This document shows, piece after piece, positions 4,316-34,418 of a stretch of 64,000 nt of DNA. The translations under genes and the position numbers were made by a program. This DNA is from Nodosilinea nodulosa PCC 7104 (GTDB lineage Bacteria > Cyanobacteriota > Cyanobacteriia > Phormidesmidales > Phormidesmidaceae), in contig NZ_JH976537.1 in the NCBI RefSeq assembly GCF_000309385.1, positions 5,035,938 to 5,099,937 on the forward strand, in the 5' to 3' direction. The notes under the pieces are model-generated. The model saw only the letters and a program-made list of their open reading frames with translations, had not been told where the DNA came from and searched no databases. Numbering within the stretch: position 1 is the first letter of the stretch; each line of letters opens with the position of its first letter.

Positions 4316-4644
4316 GGGTATTGAAGGTTGGTGTGAAGAGTAGTGTTGAAGCGAAACTGAGATCAGGCGCTGCCGCTGAGGCGATGAGATGGCATAGCAC
4401 AGGAGCTCTCTGGGGCGATGGCCATCGCTCAGGGCATAGCGTCTAATTGGATCCTCACTTATTCTTTTGATCCCGTGAATATTCGGAGCCTAAACTTTTA
4501 CAATTCGCAATAATTAGGCCGGTTTGGGTGTCACAGAATTGGCTGATCGTTTCCACGGATGAGTCATAACGGAGCTTTAGTCTCTTGAGTAAATCAGGTT
4601 CAAACCCTGATGGGTTATTCCTTCCACTCAATGAGAGAACTTCC
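4316..4644. other. Intergenic region, divergent promoters
   Basis: About 330 bases between the response regulator and a membrane-protein gene, which are transcribed away from each other. It holds a 14-base palindrome GCGATGGCCATCGC near 4415-4430. No gene, tRNA or clear terminator is visible. Confidence 0.4.
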
Positions 4645-5241
4645 ATGACTTCACCATTTATCGCCCTAAATCCTGACTATACAAACGACAAAATTGGCGA
4701 GATTCCGTTGGCCTATTCGCTGCCTTTGAATGCTCACGCTACCGATACGCCACCGGCTTTGAAACAGCGCTGGAATCTATCGACGCTCGTTTCGGTGGCC
4801 TTCCGGCAACGGCTCAAGAAGTTGACCCCCTGGCTGCTTTCGGGCAGTGTTCTCAGTCTGGAGCTGATTTTGCACCAACCCGCCTTCATGCTGGGGGTAA
4901 GCCTGTTTGGCCTGGCTAGCATGACCGTGAAAGCCCTGCTGCGCAGCAATCCGGCGGTCCAAAAACTGTTCAAGCGGGTGGGGCTGAGCGCTCAATCCCT
5001 GCCGGTGCTCTCCATAGCCTTCGGCGGTGGGGTTTGGCTCAGTGCAGCAACGCCCAGCCAGGCGCTGTTCTTTCAGGCGGCAGAGCAGTTCTTCACCACT
5101 CAGTTTCCGGATGCAGCGACGGCTATTCCGATCGTCTTTGCTGTGCTGCGGGCGCTGTTTGTGCTCTACATCGGCGTCTCCTTAATCCGGGTGATCAACT
5201 CAGTGAGGAATGATGACGATTGGGTGCGAGCCGTTGCCTAG
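4645..5241 (+). CDS. Hypothetical membrane protein, 3' end interrupted by group II intron
   Basis: With ATG 4645 the product is about 198 residues. An N-terminal soluble region of some 50 residues is followed by three hydrophobic segments (about 60-100, 122-145 and 170-190). The small hydrophobic helices resemble pilin/TrbC-like membrane proteins, but no family is assigned. The last codons (GTG CGA GCC GTT GCC TAG) coincide with a group II intron 5' consensus GTGCG at 5224, so the natural C-terminus beyond DDW is probably missing and these residues come from the intron. An upstream in-frame ATG at 4585 is possible. Confidence 0.6.
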   Translation: MTSPFIALNPDYTNDKIGEIPLAYSLPLNAHATDTPPALKQRWNLSTLVSVAFRQRLKKLTPWLLSGSVLSLELILHQPAFMLGVSLFGLASMTVKALLRSNPAVQKLFKRVGLSAQSLPVLSIAFGGGVWLSAATPSQALFFQAAEQFFTTQFPDAATAIPIVFAVLRALFVLYIGVSLIRVINSVRNDDDWVRAVA

Positions 5242-6360
5242 AAACTGGAACTCACCTGAGTTTCAGGGGATTAGGCGCAAGGTCTTTAGACCTTGACAAC
5301 TGAATGGCCATGTAGGTGTAAGTCCTACCCCGTGGGTGCAACGGTGACAGCACTTCCCCCACTCGTGCGACTGGCTCTCAAGCGGGTGAAGCGGGGATGA
5401 ACGGCAGCCCTTCCGAGAACCGTACTCGGCAATCTGTCTAGCAAAGAATCTATGGGTAGCGAAAGCGAAGATGCGTCAGAACCATCGTTACGTCAAGTGG
5501 GCTACGACGGTTAGCAGCCCAGGCCAAAACGGCAAGGCAAACGGGAACTGGCGATTCCAGTCTCGACCAGTCTGCACTTCCCATTAACCCGGTGGAGAGC
5601 ATCGCCCTAAGGATTCAAACAATGGTCATTCGGAACGGAATAACCCGCTGAGGCGCTCTCTGGTTCACCCCAGAGTCGGCAGCCACGCTACAAGCCCTCA
5701 GCGGGCGGGATTGTATCAAAAGCAAAGGCCTGGGGTAATGCCCAGGATAGGCCAACAGATACACGATGAACTGATGGTAATGAATCAAGTCACAGTCCAA
5801 ACGTCTAAGACTGGGGCCAACGTGCCCACAGTGGAATGGAAGACCCTCCCCTGGCGACAGCTAGAGGCGAAGGTGTTCAAGCTGCAAACGAGGATTTACC
5901 GAGCTGAACAGAATGGTGATGTGAAAACCGTTCACAAACTGCAAAAGACCCTGATGCGGTCATGGGCAGCTCGCTGCCTGGCGGTGCGTAAGGTCACCCA
6001 GGACAACCGGGGCAAGCAGACAGCCGGGATTGATGGCGTCAAATCCCTCACCCCAGCTCAACGCTTGCAACTGGCCCAAAACCTCTCCTTGAGCGACAAA
6101 TCAGCCCCGGTTCGACGGGTGCTGATTCCCAAGCCAGGGAAAACGGAAAAACGGCCCCTCGGGATTCCGACTATGACCGAACGAGCCCGCCAGGCCCTGG
6201 TCAAACTAGCACTGGAACCCCAGTGGGAGGCCAAATTTGAGCCTCACTCCTACGGTTTCAGACCCGGTCGCTCAGCACAAGACGCCCTCAGGGCGATTCA
6301 ACAGGCGACCCAGCAGAAAGCCAAATACGTGCTGGATGCGGATATCGCCAAGTGCTTCTA
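5224..6360 (+). mobile_element. Group II intron, 5' portion, truncated inside its RT gene
   Basis: Begins with the 5' consensus GTGCGAG at 5224. It then shows domain-I-like structured sequence including TTGACAACTGAAT (about 5294) and GGTGTAAGTCCTACC (about 5313), and after some 550 bases a maturase/reverse transcriptase frame, the usual spacing. Domains V/VI and the 3' splice site are absent because the serine-recombinase cassette starts near 6360. The exact right junction is inferred from where RT homology stops (DADIAKCF). The intron should no longer self-splice from this locus. Confidence 0.75.
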
Positions 6361-6372
6361 TTGGACATCTTG
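5774..6372 (+). pseudogene. ltrA: Group II intron reverse transcriptase/maturase, N-terminal part
   Basis: Retains RT0 and the first RT blocks: VEWKTLPWRQLEAKVFKLQT, KVTQDNRGKQTAGIDGVKSL (RT1), VRRVLIPKPGKTEKRPLGIP with TMTERARQALVKLALEP (RT2), and PHSYGFRPGRSAQDAL ... KYVLDADIAKCF (start of RT3). The frame then runs into foreign sequence (YWTS, stop at 6372), so the catalytic YADD block, the maturase X domain and any endonuclease domain are gone. About 200 of a usual 550-600 residues remain. ATG 5774 or 5780 is the likely start; longer readings use TTG. Confidence 0.88.
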
Positions 6373-6381
6373 ATACTCCGT

Positions 6382-6687
6382 TCAAAAACGTAGCTTCTCG
6401 AGCTTTTCAGATAACAGATCCTGAAATTGAGTCAGCGTGTCAGGTGCATCCGGAAACAAATATAGCTTCGTCTCTGCATCGCGCGTGACAGCAATTTGGC
6501 CAGTATTAATACGATGGTAAATCCAATGGGGTGAGATTCTAAGACTGGCCGCAATCTGAGGAATCGTCAGGTAGCCGGGCACCTGACGGGGATGAGACTG
6601 ACTACGTTTCCTGAAGATGCGGTGTCTGAGGCGGATCGTTCTGACCGTACTCATCAATAAAGTTGGGGCCAGAGGAGAGCGAAATCC
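6382..6687 (-). pseudogene. Serine recombinase, C-terminal part (separated by IS insertion)
   Basis: Carries the DNA-binding tail of the recombinase whose N-terminal part is at 8178-9917. The frame GFRSPLAPTL ... STVRTIRLRHRIF ... GYLTIPQIAASLRISPHWIY is a helix-turn-helix with a terminal segment YLFPDAPDTLTQF. Removing the IS4-type insertion and one copy of its 10-bp target joins LTQE directly to GFRSP in frame, reconstructing a protein of about 681 residues. In the present DNA it has lost its natural start and is probably silent, or read only as a fusion from IS sequence (ATG at 6825). Confidence 0.85.
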
Positions 6688-8187
6688 TTCTTGAGTCGAA
6701 TGGCACTGACATAAGAGAGCAGAAAAGGCTTCAAGCGCTTGATCTGTAAAGATCGAAGCGTCGAAGCCCAAAACCATGTCTCTATGATGCCGAATCGTGC
6801 GGATGTCCTCAAGGAGAAATACCAAAACAGTATCGGTCTACCCTTTGCCAAGGTTCTACCGGAAGCCGAAGTCCAGGCTGTAGTGGACGAACAAGGCATC
6901 GCCTATCGCCAAGTGCTCTACACCCCAATGGTAGTGCTGTGGAGTTGGATCTCCCAAGTTCTTGATGTCGATGGCAGTCTCAGCCATGCGGTCAAGCGGG
7001 TGGTGGCCTGGATGAGCCTGGCGGGCTTAGAGCCGCCGTCAGCCGATACCGGGGGGTACAGTAAAGCGCGTAAGCGCCTGAGCGAGTCCATTTTCCCACC
7101 CCTACTAAAGCGAGTGACGAGGGCGTTACAACGGAAAGTATCCCCGGAACAACGGTGGTGTGGTCGCCGAGTCAAGGCCTTTGATGCCACGACGGTCTTG
7201 ATGAGTGATACCAAGGCCAATCAAGCGGCGTATCCCCAACACAGCAATCAGAAGACGGGCTGTGGCTTTCCGCTGTTGAAGCTTCAGGTGTGGTTTTGCG
7301 TGACTACGGGAGCGGTCTTGGAGGTAGCGATGGCTCCTTTTCGGGTGAGTGAGTGGCGCTTAGCCCGCCAACTTTACCAGACCCTGCGCCCAGAGGATGT
7401 GGTGGTGGCCGATTCGGCCTATGGCACCTATGTGGATCTGGCCTGGGTCGCGCTGACGGGAGCCGATGCCGTTTTTCGCAAGCACCATCAGCGCCGCTGC
7501 GATTTCAGGCGTGGCAAAAAGCTTGGGATTGGCGACCACATTGTCCGGTGGCAACGCCCCAAGCAATGCCCCGACGCCCTCTCGCCTGAGGAGTTTGAAG
7601 CCTTACCCGAGTCGATTGAGGTACGCGAAGTCTTTCTCTCCATTCAGACGCCTGGGTTTCGACCGACCAACATCGTAGTGGTGACCACCCTGATGGACGC
7701 CAAGCGGTATCGCAAAGCTAAATTGGCCGAACTCTATCACCTCCGCTGGCAGGCCACCGAAGTCAATCTCAGGCATCTCAAGACCACCTTAGCTATGGAG
7801 ATGATTGCCGCCAAAACGCCCGCTATGGTGACCAAAAGCATTTGGGTTCATCTGTTGACCTACAATCTGCTGCGAACCCTCATGTGGGAGGCGACTGCCG
7901 ACTCTGAGGTCGACGCGTTACGGCTCTCCCTTCAGGGCACTCGGCAACAATTTAATCACTTCCGACCCGAGTTTCTCCATCTCGCTCCATCCCAGCAACA
8001 GCGAGGCTACCAGGCCTTGTTAAGCGCTGTGCAAGAGCTGATTGTTCCCTTTCGCCCCAACCGTTCAGAACCCCGAGTCGTCAAACGTCGTCCCAAACCG
8101 TTCCCGAGAATGCAGGAACCCCGCTCAGTCCTGAAAGCTAAGCTGGTAGCTTGATAGGGCTTACGTCAGTGACATTCTTCTTGAGTC
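6688..8187 (+). mobile_element. IS4-family insertion sequence with target duplication
   Basis: A 1,480-bp element at 6698-8177. The left end GAATGGCACTGACATAAG and the inverted right end GAATGTCACTGACGTAAG form an 18-bp imperfect terminal repeat (two mismatches). Flanking copies of TTCTTGAGTC (6688-6697 and 8178-8187) are identical 10-bp target duplications. It carries a single full-length transposase gene. The perfect duplication and the undamaged target frame point to a recent insertion. Confidence 0.9.
6784..8154 (+). CDS. IS4-family DDE transposase
   Basis: 456 residues from ATG 6784; an earlier ATG at 6739 would add 15. The first catalytic Asp lies in RRVKAFDATTVLMSD, the second in EDVVVADSAYGTY and the Glu in the YREK signature YHLRWQATEVNLRHLK, all in the order and spacing expected for IS4. 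The C-terminus is basic (KRRPKPFPRM). Intact open frame inside intact terminal repeats, so the element may be active. It splits a serine recombinase gene transcribed from the opposite strand. Confidence 0.93.
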   Translation: MMPNRADVLKEKYQNSIGLPFAKVLPEAEVQAVVDEQGIAYRQVLYTPMVVLWSWISQVLDVDGSLSHAVKRVVAWMSLAGLEPPSADTGGYSKARKRLSESIFPPLLKRVTRALQRKVSPEQRWCGRRVKAFDATTVLMSDTKANQAAYPQHSNQKTGCGFPLLKLQVWFCVTTGAVLEVAMAPFRVSEWRLARQLYQTLRPEDVVVADSAYGTYVDLAWVALTGADAVFRKHHQRRCDFRRGKKLGIGDHIVRWQRPKQCPDALSPEEFEALPESIEVREVFLSIQTPGFRPTNIVVVTTLMDAKRYRKAKLAELYHLRWQATEVNLRHLKTTLAMEMIAAKTPAMVTKSIWVHLLTYNLLRTLMWEATADSEVDALRLSLQGTRQQFNHFRPEFLHLAPSQQQRGYQALLSAVQELIVPFRPNRSEPRVVKRRPKPFPRMQEPRSVLKAKLVA

Positions 8188-9917
8188 AACTGTTCCGCTA
8201 TGGTTTCGTCATCCAAACCCTGTTGGCTGAGAGTGACAACCCGGCCATCTAGCTCCTGAGCATTACTGAGATCCGAGAGTGCCCCAACAGGAACCGGGAG
8301 ATCTGCCGTTGTGGTCTCTCCCCCTTTCCAAATGATTCGGGTGCGCACCTGGTCTCGGGCAAGCCGATGAATCACGACTTTATCAATCAGGCACCGCAGC
8401 AGAGCTTTCTTTTGCACGCGGCTCAAGACGTCGCCTTGCCAAAGGCCAGGGAGCTTTTTCCCAATATCGAGAAAGGCAGTTTTCAAAGCAGGAGGAAGGC
8501 TGCGCTCGGGTTGTAGAACTTGGCGTTTGTCATACTTGTCTTCGGCTTGTTGCAGATCATGCAATGCGCCTTCCCACCGTCTTTCCAATTCTGCGGCCAC
8601 CAGGCGATTGTCGGGGTCGACTTGGTTATACTGACGCTCGGCTAGCGCCACTTGATAGCGCAGCCGTTTTAACTGCTGCTGGTGACCGTGTTCGAGGCTA
8701 TCTGAGGCCTTTTTTTGGGTCTCAAGGGCGGCTGAGTAAGCATCGAGTTCCAGAGGCGAAAGGGCGGCCAAAAAGGCTTCCACCACATAGTGGTCAATCG
8801 GATCTGCCGGAATGTATTGGCACACCAGCACCCGATATTGTTGTCGCAGATAATTGCAGATATATCGAGTGCCGGTCTTGTATTGGACGACCAGTTTATG
8901 ACCACATTCTCCGCAATATACTAACCCATGCAACAACGCGGCACCCGGCCTGGGAATGCCCCGGCTTTTGTTGCGGTCATACTCCGCATAGTTCTCTTTT
9001 AGCTGAGCTTGAATCTGCTCGTAGACCTCCCAGCTAACGTAGGCGGGATATTTGTCGTTCACCCGAATCCTCCACTCCGGTTGGGGTAATTGTTTTTGTT
9101 TGGCTTGAGAAGAGGCCGGGCCGTCCCGGACGGTTCGACTTCGACCATAGACAAAGGCCCCGGCATAGGCCGGATTTTTGAGCATGGAGAGAATGGCCGC
9201 AATACTCGGATCACGCCAAGTAATGTCACCAAAGCGATTTTGGCGGGGAAGGCACAAGCCTTGGGCCCTGAAGGTGCAGACCACCTGGCTGGCGGCCTTC
9301 ACCTTGAGAAAGGTGTCAAATACTAGCGTAATCCGGTCTTGGATTTCCTGGTTGGGGTGTTTATGAACCACACCCTGCTCATCGCGCACTAGCCCGACGG
9401 GTAACCGCAAGGCTAACTCCCCTCGCTGGGCTTTGTTGAGGATTCCAGCCCGCAGCCGAGAGCGAATCGTGTGCAACTCGAGTTCTGAAATTTGCCCTTT
9501 CAATCCCAGTAACAACCGTCCGTTGGCGCTGCCAGGGTCATACACGCCGTCGCGGTCGGCAATCAAACAGTTGCGGTATCCACATAAATCCAACAGCGGA
9601 TACCAATCGGAGCAGTTGCGCGATAAGCGAGTCACGTCGTAGGAGAGGATAATGCCCACCTGCCCTAAGGTGACTTGAGCAATCAATTCCTTAAAGCCAG
9701 CACGATGCTCAGCGGTCGCAGCCGTCATGCCCAAGTCACTATCGATAATTTCGATTTGGGTATCAGCCCAGCCTAGATCAACGGCTCTTTGTCGTAGGGC
9801 ATATTGGAGCTTCAGACTTTCTTGATTGCTCAAGATTTGATGGGGACTGGATTGGCGGATGTAGATGAGGGCCTTCAGCTTCAGGTGATAAGACGTCACT
9901 AGCTCGGAGGTGGTCAT
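8178..9917 (-). pseudogene. Large serine recombinase, N-terminal and catalytic part, disrupted
   Basis: Begins MTTSELVTSYHLKLKALIYI with the resolvase-type catalytic serine in YIRQSSPHQ. The catalytic domain (VGIILSYDVTRLSRN, ISELELHTIRSRLRAG), the recombinase domain (NPAYAGAFVYGR), a Cys4 zinc ribbon (YCGECGHKL ... YICNY) and a coiled coil follow. The IS4-type insertion adds a premature stop at 8166 after LTQEECH. ATG 9917 is preferred because a GAGGA site precedes it; an in-frame alternative is at 9932. Without its C-terminal helix-turn-helix the protein may still be catalytic but DNA targeting is doubtful. Confidence 0.9.
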
Positions 9918-10014
9918 GGATAATGTCCTCAAAAATGGTCATGAGGTCTGTGATGATGGTGGCCTGCAGGGCTGGAGATAGGCGGCTCCAGACCTGATGA
10001 GGAGAAATCGACAT
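9778..10014 (-). CDS. Small accessory protein of the recombinase cassette
   Basis: About 78 residues starting MSISPHQVWSRLSPALQATI, followed by a helical stretch ITDLMTIFEDIIHDHLRAS. Short proteins with an S/T-P-x-x-V-W-x-x-L motif are commonly found between a DUF5372-type gene and a large serine recombinase in bacteria (recalled, not searched). It overlaps the upstream gene by 86 bases and the recombinase start by about 140. The second half may be low-constraint sequence shared with the recombinase frame. Role unknown. Confidence 0.5.
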   Translation of the reverse strand: MSISPHQVWSRLSPALQATIITDLMTIFEDIIHDHLRASDVLSPEAEGPHLHPPIQSPSNLEQSRKSEAPICPTTKSR

Positions 10015-10333
10015 CGGCGTCACCCTGGTGAACAACCGTGACCAATTCGGTCACGCTCTCTAGCGTGAGCTTAGTTCCCAGGGATTCGCGCCGCGCGGCG
10101 AGATGGGTTGCCGACAGCGGTATTCGCAATTGCATATGGTCTTGGTAGATCACCGATGCATACCCGATCGCTCTGGGTGCAGTGGAGACGGACAGCAGCG
10201 TAAACCGTCGCCCAAAGAGCGGATGCATCGGGTCAGTAATTTCAATCTCTGCCAGTCCTTCCGGTTCTGCCGATGGGTTCTTGACAGGGGTATTAACTAA
10301 CGGTCTCGTTCGACCTGCTTGTCTATGGGCCAA
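9929..10333 (-). CDS. DUF5372-like protein of the recombinase cassette
   Basis: About 134 residues. The core EIEITDPMHPLFGRRFTLLS matches the opening of DUF5372-type proteins (I/T-H-P-x-H-P-L-x-G), followed by a beta-rich stretch and LRIPLSATHL. The start is uncertain: the frame opens with TTG at 10333 and has no good ribosome site. First gene of a three-gene minus-strand cassette with the small protein and the serine recombinase. The histidine-rich tail near 9935 overlaps the next gene. Role in transposition is inferred only from linkage. Confidence 0.55.
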   Translation of the reverse strand: MAHRQAGRTRPLVNTPVKNPSAEPEGLAEIEITDPMHPLFGRRFTLLSVSTAPRAIGYASVIYQDHMQLRIPLSATHLAARRESLGTKLTLESVTELVTVVHQGDADVDFSSSGLEPPISSPAGHHHHRPHDHF

Positions 10334-10430
10334 TAAAACGACTGTTTAGCCCAACTCTGCGCGGCCTATAGGCTCTAGGCCAAGGTCTTCTTTGCAGAGG
10401 CTTGCGTTTTGCAGGCCCGAAACATGCCAC

Positions 10431-10453
10431 AAAAAACCGGGGCTGTGCCCCGG
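10431..10453 (-). terminator. Rho-independent terminator of sbtA-sbtB
   Basis: On the minus strand the stem CCGGGGC / GCCCCGG with a 3-base loop is followed by TTTTTT. It lies 28 bases beyond the sbtB stop. Confidence 0.85.
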
Positions 10454-10480
10454 CTTTGGTAAAGTCTGCGCGATCTCGAT

Positions 10481-10882
<402 letters not shown>

Positions 10883-10903
10883 TCAGACCCGCGTCGTCTG
10901 GGT

Positions 10904-12004
10904 TTAGCCCCCCGTCATCGCCTCGGCCAGACCGACAAAGAGTGGTATGCACAGTGCGATCGCAACCGGCGTGCCGACAGCTGTGGACGCGCCGATGTAG
11001 GCCGACGGGTTGGCCGACGGGATGCCCGCTCGCAGCGTGGGCGGCCCGGAGATGTCTGAACTAGAGGCGGCAATGATGGCCAGGAGCGCGACGCCACCAG
11101 GGCTAAATCCGGTGGCGTAGTGGGCAATCATGCCGAGGCCGAAGGCGATAAACCCGTGCAGAAATGGCGCGACAAAGGCGTACAGGGCGTACCACTGGGC
11201 CACCTGGCGCAGCTCGTTGAGACGCGCCCAGGCCTCCATGCCCATGACCAGCATCAGAATTGAAAGCAGACCACGGAAGAGGGGCTCGTAGAAGCTTTCA
11301 AAGACACTTTCAGGCCGAGTTAAAATGCCCAGGGCGAGACCGAGCAGCAGCGCCGATAGGGCAGACCCCTGAAGACTTTCTTTCACAATAGGCCAGATTT
11401 TGACCTTATCGCTTTCAGAACCGCTTGGCTTGCTGAGGACAGCGACACCCCCGCCCTGCTCACCGTGATACGCTTCTTTGCTCAGATACTCCTCATTTTT
11501 GCGATACTTTTCGCGCTTCTGCTTGTTGCTATAGATACTGGCCAGGACAATCGCTGTTACGAGCGCGGGGATGTCCATAAAGGGATAGAGGGCGCCGGCC
11601 CAGGCCTCGTATTGAACGCCTTGCCCTTCCAGTACCGTGATGCCAGCGGCGAGGGTAGAGCCACTCACGGCTCCGAACAGGCCTCCGGTCGCCAGGGCAT
11701 CGACGGTTCTGATACCCCGCAGCTTGGCCAACGTGTAGCTCGCGATGAAGACAATTAGAATCCCTGTTACCACGGCGAACAGCGCGGGCAGCAGCATCTC
11801 TGCCAGATTGGCGTTGCGAATCGCAATGCCGCCGCTCAGGCCAACCTTGATCAGCAGCATGAAGACGATGAACTTATAGATCGCATCGGGAATGGCTAGC
11901 TCGCTACCGAGGGCGGCAATGACGATACCGCCAATCAGAAAGCCGAGCGTCGGGGACTGCAGCTGCGCCCCAAATTTTGTCAAGAACTCGGACAAGAAAT
12001 CCAC
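10904..12004 (-). CDS. sbtA: Sodium-dependent bicarbonate transporter SbtA
   Basis: 366 residues with about ten TM helices in two inverted halves around a hydrophilic loop at about 165-205 (KQKREKYRKNEEYLSKEAYH), the cytoplasmic loop implicated in regulation. Conserved stretches GGLFGAVSGSTLAAG and SSDISGPPTLRAGIPSANPS match the transport-site regions of SbtA. The start is GTG at 12004 behind GAGGAGG. It imports HCO3- with Na+ across the plasma membrane under carbon limitation, and SbtB downstream should gate it. The upstream region carries three TCTATCC repeats. Confidence 0.96.
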   Translation of the reverse strand: MDFLSEFLTKFGAQLQSPTLGFLIGGIVIAALGSELAIPDAIYKFIVFMLLIKVGLSGGIAIRNANLAEMLLPALFAVVTGILIVFIASYTLAKLRGIRTVDALATGGLFGAVSGSTLAAGITVLEGQGVQYEAWAGALYPFMDIPALVTAIVLASIYSNKQKREKYRKNEEYLSKEAYHGEQGGGVAVLSKPSGSESDKVKIWPIVKESLQGSALSALLLGLALGILTRPESVFESFYEPLFRGLLSILMLVMGMEAWARLNELRQVAQWYALYAFVAPFLHGFIAFGLGMIAHYATGFSPGGVALLAIIAASSSDISGPPTLRAGIPSANPSAYIGASTAVGTPVAIALCIPLFVGLAEAMTGG

Positions 12005-34212: not shown

Positions 34213-34418
34213 AATCTCGCCTCGCTTTGTTGTCTTGAAGGGTACAGAGGCGCGTTCCTTCAGGGTGTTTCCCCTACTTCCGTCTCTTTGTAGAGAGATG
34301 AACGTTTTGTCTTTCTGTATTCATTGTTACCGTTCCCCCTCTTGCTGTCAAGGCAACTGTGTCAGGGATTGCTGATTTTCCCGGCCTGGGAAACTGGCCG
34401 GGGACACCCAAAAACAAG

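Follow-up and report, generated by a model that had tools for sequence, protein, structure and literature searches.

Taken together, the evidence assembled here makes it probable that, in Nodosilinea nodulosa PCC 7104, a group II intron inserted into a small membrane-protein gene, a large-serine-recombinase element then integrated into the reverse transcriptase (RT) gene of that intron, two copies of this element exchanged their flanks and further insertion sequences (ISs) followed. The window, that is, the whole stretch of 64,000 nucleotides that we analysed, belongs to a genome of two contigs (C1, 6.10 Mb, and C2, 0.79 Mb; here G000). Every layer of the locus is of a known kind; what is new is the pattern of targeting and the exchange. 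The account is built on junctions, un-inserted versions, an attachment register, a target codon shared with Microvirga and the places where the separated halves lie, all of them read directly from sequence.

The 5′ exon of the membrane-protein gene occupies 4585–5223 on the plus strand and ends in ..VRNDDDW, and at 5224 the exon/intron junction reads ..GAC GAT TGG / GTGCGAGCC (here and below, a slash marks a junction). From this point the 5′ part of a group II intron, starting with GTGCG, extends on the same strand to 6357, where it is truncated within the RT; the N-terminal half of the RT/maturase ORF (5711–6357, plus strand) is cut in motif A at VLDADIAKC-F. This half matches the RVT_N (8.6e-35), RVT_1 (4.8e-13) and TIGR04416 (8.5e-37) profiles. 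In a congener (G035) the window locus is conserved at 92% identity and the intron is complete: at 2,407 bp it has a 5′ GUGCG, a full RT/maturase ORF, domain V and a 3′ boundary, as expected of a group II intron, and its spliced exons read ..DDDW/QTMARTPLMVAVCVAVGEVLTNLIIQ followed by a stop codon. The window copy retains the 5′ part only, and its DNA identity to the intact copy ends exactly at 6358. An Rfam search of the window returned no group II intron match, which is consistent with the truncation. At 20 loci in relatives the membrane-protein gene is uninterrupted, the same Trp codon being read through as ..DEDW/QTIARTPLIIIIAV.., and paralogous genes carry further introns at this codon, complete in G035 and truncated in G000. 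The latter, at C1:75689–77830, is the second copy of the window intron in G000 (97% identity) and is also truncated in the RT, about 20 nt beyond the window break (at FDQIDHS) and by a different, multi-copy IS, and there too the RT 3′ half is missing. A preliminary description of this DNA had placed the intron 5′ end at 5224 and the cut in the RT near 6360; the former is borne out by the complete sister copy, the second genomic copy and the uninterrupted loci, and the latter by the end of identity next to the TT core described below.

The element that interrupts the RT occupies 6358–10308 on the minus strand and measures about 2.46 kb without the IS that it contains and the duplication made by that IS. 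The left attachment core, TT at 6356–6357, consists of the first two bases of the Phe codon in DIAKC-F-D and is placed by the register of the element ends; the right core, TT at 10309–10310, follows the register of the ends in Microvirga and in G054, which holds the nearest relative in another genus. All genes of the element lie on the minus strand. They comprise a DUF5372-like ORF (9929–10308), a small ORF upstream of the recombinase that has no family match (9778–10035), the N-terminal part of a serine recombinase (8178–9932) and its C-terminal part (6382–6697), which carries a weak helix-turn-helix match (HTH_17), is split off by the IS and aligns collinearly with the G054 recombinase, which is uninterrupted. 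The resolvase (PF00239), recombinase (PF07508) and zinc ribbon (PF13408) domains all score above cut-off, in the order typical of large serine recombinase elements, and DUF4368 is absent from the Pfam matches of this recombinase. Judged by its domains and attachment sites, then, the element is a large serine recombinase element. The cassette of DUF5372, small protein and serine recombinase that had been described is indeed present, but its DUF5372 label is weak: PF17342 scores 16.1 bits against a cut-off of 25 (E=0.012), and the ORF is at best a distant relative of that family.

Element ends from all three sources (window, G054, Microvirga) fall into a single register around a 2-nt core, AA/TT, which is followed by 13 nt and then by TAATACCCC or a close variant, with a matching end on the opposite side. 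In all three the core is found at both ends, with no longer duplication; it is also present in the empty target of the Microvirga element, where joining restores the RT, and in that of the window element, of which the left side is represented. An apparent inverted match, TATTGG, had suggested a right end at 10335–10338 and was dropped after the relatives gave the attachment register. Since the right core lies at 10309–10310, the TTG start called at 10333 for the DUF5372-like frame falls in the host flank, outside the element, and the extent to 10333 originally given has to be shortened. No obvious start codon for this frame is seen inside the element, either in the window or in Microvirga.

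The IS that splits the recombinase is a 1,480-bp member of the IS4 family (6698–8177, plus strand) with a transposase ORF at 6739–8154. It has a DDE transposase (NF033592, 191.6 bits; cut-off 115), terminal inverted repeats and a 10-bp target duplication, TTCTTGAGTC, at 6688–6697 and 8178–8187; six other full-length copies in G000 each have their own 10-bp duplication. The split reported earlier is thus supported by this duplication and by the C-terminal part beyond it, and the recombinases of G054 (which has one stop codon) and Microvirga are unsplit by any IS. The order of insertion, first intron, then recombinase element, then IS, likewise stands, because besides the junctions there are un-inserted versions at all levels: the gene without the intron (the 20 loci), the complete RT (G035) and the recombinase without the IS (G054 and Microvirga). 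The suggestion that such stacking records repeated targeting of one safe site is not supported, as every layer obeys a separate target rule: the intron occupies one conserved Trp codon in paralogous genes, the element at an attachment site in RT motif A, and the IS4 duplication differs from site to site.

On the left side, therefore, the four-level nest has the layers and the order first proposed, but on the right side it is not closed. The right flank (10311–12004, minus strand) is not RT; about 170 bp of non-conserved DNA separate the right core from sbtB (10481–10813) and sbtA (10904–12004), which have P-II and Sbt_1 matches, so that the element faces the 3′ side of sbtB here. Neither the RT 3′ half nor the intron 3′ end nor the second exon follows on this side. 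Nor does the RT continue elsewhere, an outcome that had been named as fatal to the nest: G035 DNA used as a query against G000 gave no match for an RT 3′ half, and a whole-genome search found no maturase domain. This leaves the insertion unrefuted and the nest unclosed. In the regions downstream of sbtB in six relatives, where the right-hand target was sought, the spacer is not conserved and no target was recognized. The open right side points to a rearrangement.

Parts of the genes that lie downstream of the intron in G035 match C2:505000–530990 of G000. A 54-bp exact copy of the left end of the element, which is otherwise single-copy in this genome, is found at C2:533789–533842; the C2 half of the cluster has the matching orientation and lies 2.8 kb from this stub, with two IS-type transposase genes between them. 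On the other side of the stub come an IS630-like element and then an nrt/cmp-like transport cluster, and in one relative (G043) such a cluster directly adjoins sbtB-sbtA in the predicted order and orientation. With the separated cluster near the stub and the stub's neighbour adjoining sbtB in G043, the element is placed at the breakpoint. Because G000 also has a paralogous cluster at C1:5.743–5.796 Mb, the C2 half is assigned to the window locus by inference. In that paralogous cluster, some 2 kb carrying two unrelated ORFs take the place of the segment in which the intron-bearing gene would be expected (C1:5786000–5796000). The downstream ATPase of the G035 cluster is of the HerA/FtsK type with weak Pfam support, and a conjugative label for the cluster would be a guess. 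Elsewhere in the window, the minus strand carries a glutamine riboswitch at 34249–34306 (Rfam RF01739, 59.2 bits), which together with sbtA and sbtB points to a cyanobacterial genome.

The breakpoint is best read as an exchange between two copies of the element, and the four arms fit this reading. The intron would have settled at the conserved codon of the small membrane-protein gene, and the element would then have integrated through its 2-nt-core site in motif A of the RT, at the Phe codon (DADIxxxF/D), disabling the intron RT. A second copy of the element would have lain between the nrt/cmp-like cluster and sbtB. These copies would have recombined, either homologously or through the recombinase, swapping their flanks and leaving half of the intron's cluster on each replicon; later, IS4 would have split the window recombinase and other IS elements would have shrunk the partner copy to the 54-bp stub. 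We infer that a single exchange produced both junctions, and the recombinase was presumably once active. Several observations weigh against an exchange: the stub is only 54 bp long and flanked by ISs, C2 likewise lacks the intron 3′ half, a paralogous cluster exists on C1, the adjacency comes from one relative and the right target is not recognized. A simple insertion into the intron RT, followed by an unrelated deletion from the right end of the element to the sbtB region, would require only one copy of the element and agrees with the genome-wide absence of the RT 3′ half. Such a deletion, however, would have had to stop exactly at the core at 10309–10310, with no IS at the junction, and would leave both the C2 stub beside the displaced cluster and the adjacency of nrt/cmp and sbtB in G043 unexplained; we regard it as quite improbable. 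It is hardly credible that the junctions are misjoins at a repeat during assembly. G000 does contain many IS copies, but the junctions lie at attachment cores and not at IS ends, and the only repeat of the element, the stub, is too short to misjoin long contigs.

Relatives of the recombinase show where such elements insert. A scan of named genome contigs gave no confirmed relative, and plasmids yielded them. When the flanks of the copy on a Microvirga ossetica plasmid are rejoined at the core, they restore a group II RT, ..NWILDADIRSF/FDQIDQAWLL.., and the core again coincides with bases one and two of the Phe codon that is hit in the window; the recombinases of the two elements are 62% identical. 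Other Microvirga copies interrupt an IS630-type transposase gene (left side; the right was not restored in frame) and dctP. More distant relatives obey a comparable rule. In six genomes their flanks rejoin to seven different IS4-type transposase genes (one each in G008, G012, G028, G039 and G058, and two different ISs of G015), every one cut at the Glu codon of Y-x2-R-x3-E (YREK), the core GA being its first two bases. The target counts come from a convenience sample: the flanks of many copies could not be joined cleanly, and the genes hit include at least one ordinary gene, dctP. DDE_Tnp_1 matches were obtained in the six rejoined transposases that were scanned, two of them below cut-off. In DDE transposases of this family, the Glu of the motif is known to be the third catalytic residue. 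Copies of the Mesorhizobium type interrupt serine-recombinase genes at D-x-DG-x-Y (joining restores the frame in the three AR07 copies), and the flanks of the Rhizobium and Sinorhizobium copies, inspected by eye, read as insertions in IS66 tnpB at LHWILD/GID. Automatic flank joining left many copies without a join, among them every alphaproteobacterial copy except L244, which it joined at the wrong place; alphaproteobacterial copies have a different end motif and were joined from pairwise copy boundaries, and the type-B copies of G015 and those of Bradyrhizobium 62B gave no clean gene and were left out of the counts.

Mixed flanks are not unique to the window. The G054 copy (L080, C396:932–3400) has its flanks in two different genes, one judged by eye to be an AlbA/AAA-like ORF and the other the beginning of an IS5-like transposase gene. 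Two copies of a 2,571-bp element in G015 (L132 and L144) have one flank in common, but in opposite roles, as would be expected had element copies recombined there too. One IS4-type element of the same genome has, in about ten copies scattered over different sites, the same recombinase element in its transposase gene (L133–L145); the recombinase element thus also seems to spread with the IS that it disabled.

From these flanks, the relatives appear mostly to insert in conserved, often catalytic, codons of enzymes of other mobile elements. Most likely, integration would proceed as in other serine integrases, between attP and attB, with a predicted attB inside a conserved motif of a mobile-enzyme gene. 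A broader reading, with about an equal chance of holding or failing, is that a widespread minimal serine-recombinase family parasitizes mobile DNA: each subfamily would use its own motif (the Glu codon of IS4-type transposases, RT motif A, DGxYD of serine recombinases or WILDG of IS66 TnpB), disable the enzyme and spread in part by riding its host, and recombination between copies would reshuffle replicons. Specificity might instead be loose, mobile-element targets merely marking where insertions are tolerated, as the Microvirga copy in dctP, an ordinary transporter gene, and the ordinary ORF on the left flank of the G054 copy would suggest. We consider this unlikely, since single codons recur, for which tolerance alone is insufficient: one Glu codon is hit in the seven transposase genes of six genomes, one serine-recombinase motif in the Mesorhizobium-type elements (n=3 with frames restored, in AR07), and one codon of RT motif A in two unrelated hosts.

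Serine integrases are known to choose conserved genes; in the present case entire subfamilies seem adjusted to single codons in the enzymes of mobile elements. Inteins and homing introns also target conserved, often catalytic, codon stretches, and they splice out and so spare the host gene; the element described here, in contrast, shows no sign of splicing and breaks its host gene. The best named NCBIfam relative of the recombinase is the XisF-type fdxN recombinase of cyanobacteria (NF041201), at 93.8 bits far under the cut-off of 375, and the fdxN element and its target differ from those described here. The large serine recombinase elements of Durrant et al. (2022, PMC10083194) have the domain order, the 2-nt core and the insertion within conserved genes in common with ours; a TT core was described there for one multi-targeting recombinase, and DUF4368 in 63% of the multi-targeting (TndX-like) clade. 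Unlike them, the window element is without DUF4368 and carries only two small ORFs as cargo, and the subfamilies here concentrate on motifs of mobile-element enzymes. IS607-family elements are likewise small and moved by a serine recombinase, but their transposases have an inverted domain order and minimal target specificity (PMC4058570), whereas the window recombinase runs from catalytic domain to recombinase domain to zinc ribbon and has a defined attachment register. The open-access literature that we searched contained no relevant report on DUF5372 or on large serine recombinase elements in transposase or intron genes, and no precedent for the concentration of targets in motifs of mobile-element enzymes.

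If the broader reading is true, these elements would parallel inteins and homing introns at the level of DNA, one mobile element exploiting another and disabling it, and they would provide natural integrases with predictable, codon-anchored targets. The present locus illustrates how an element of this kind can mark the place of an exchange in which the main chromosome and a second replicon take part.
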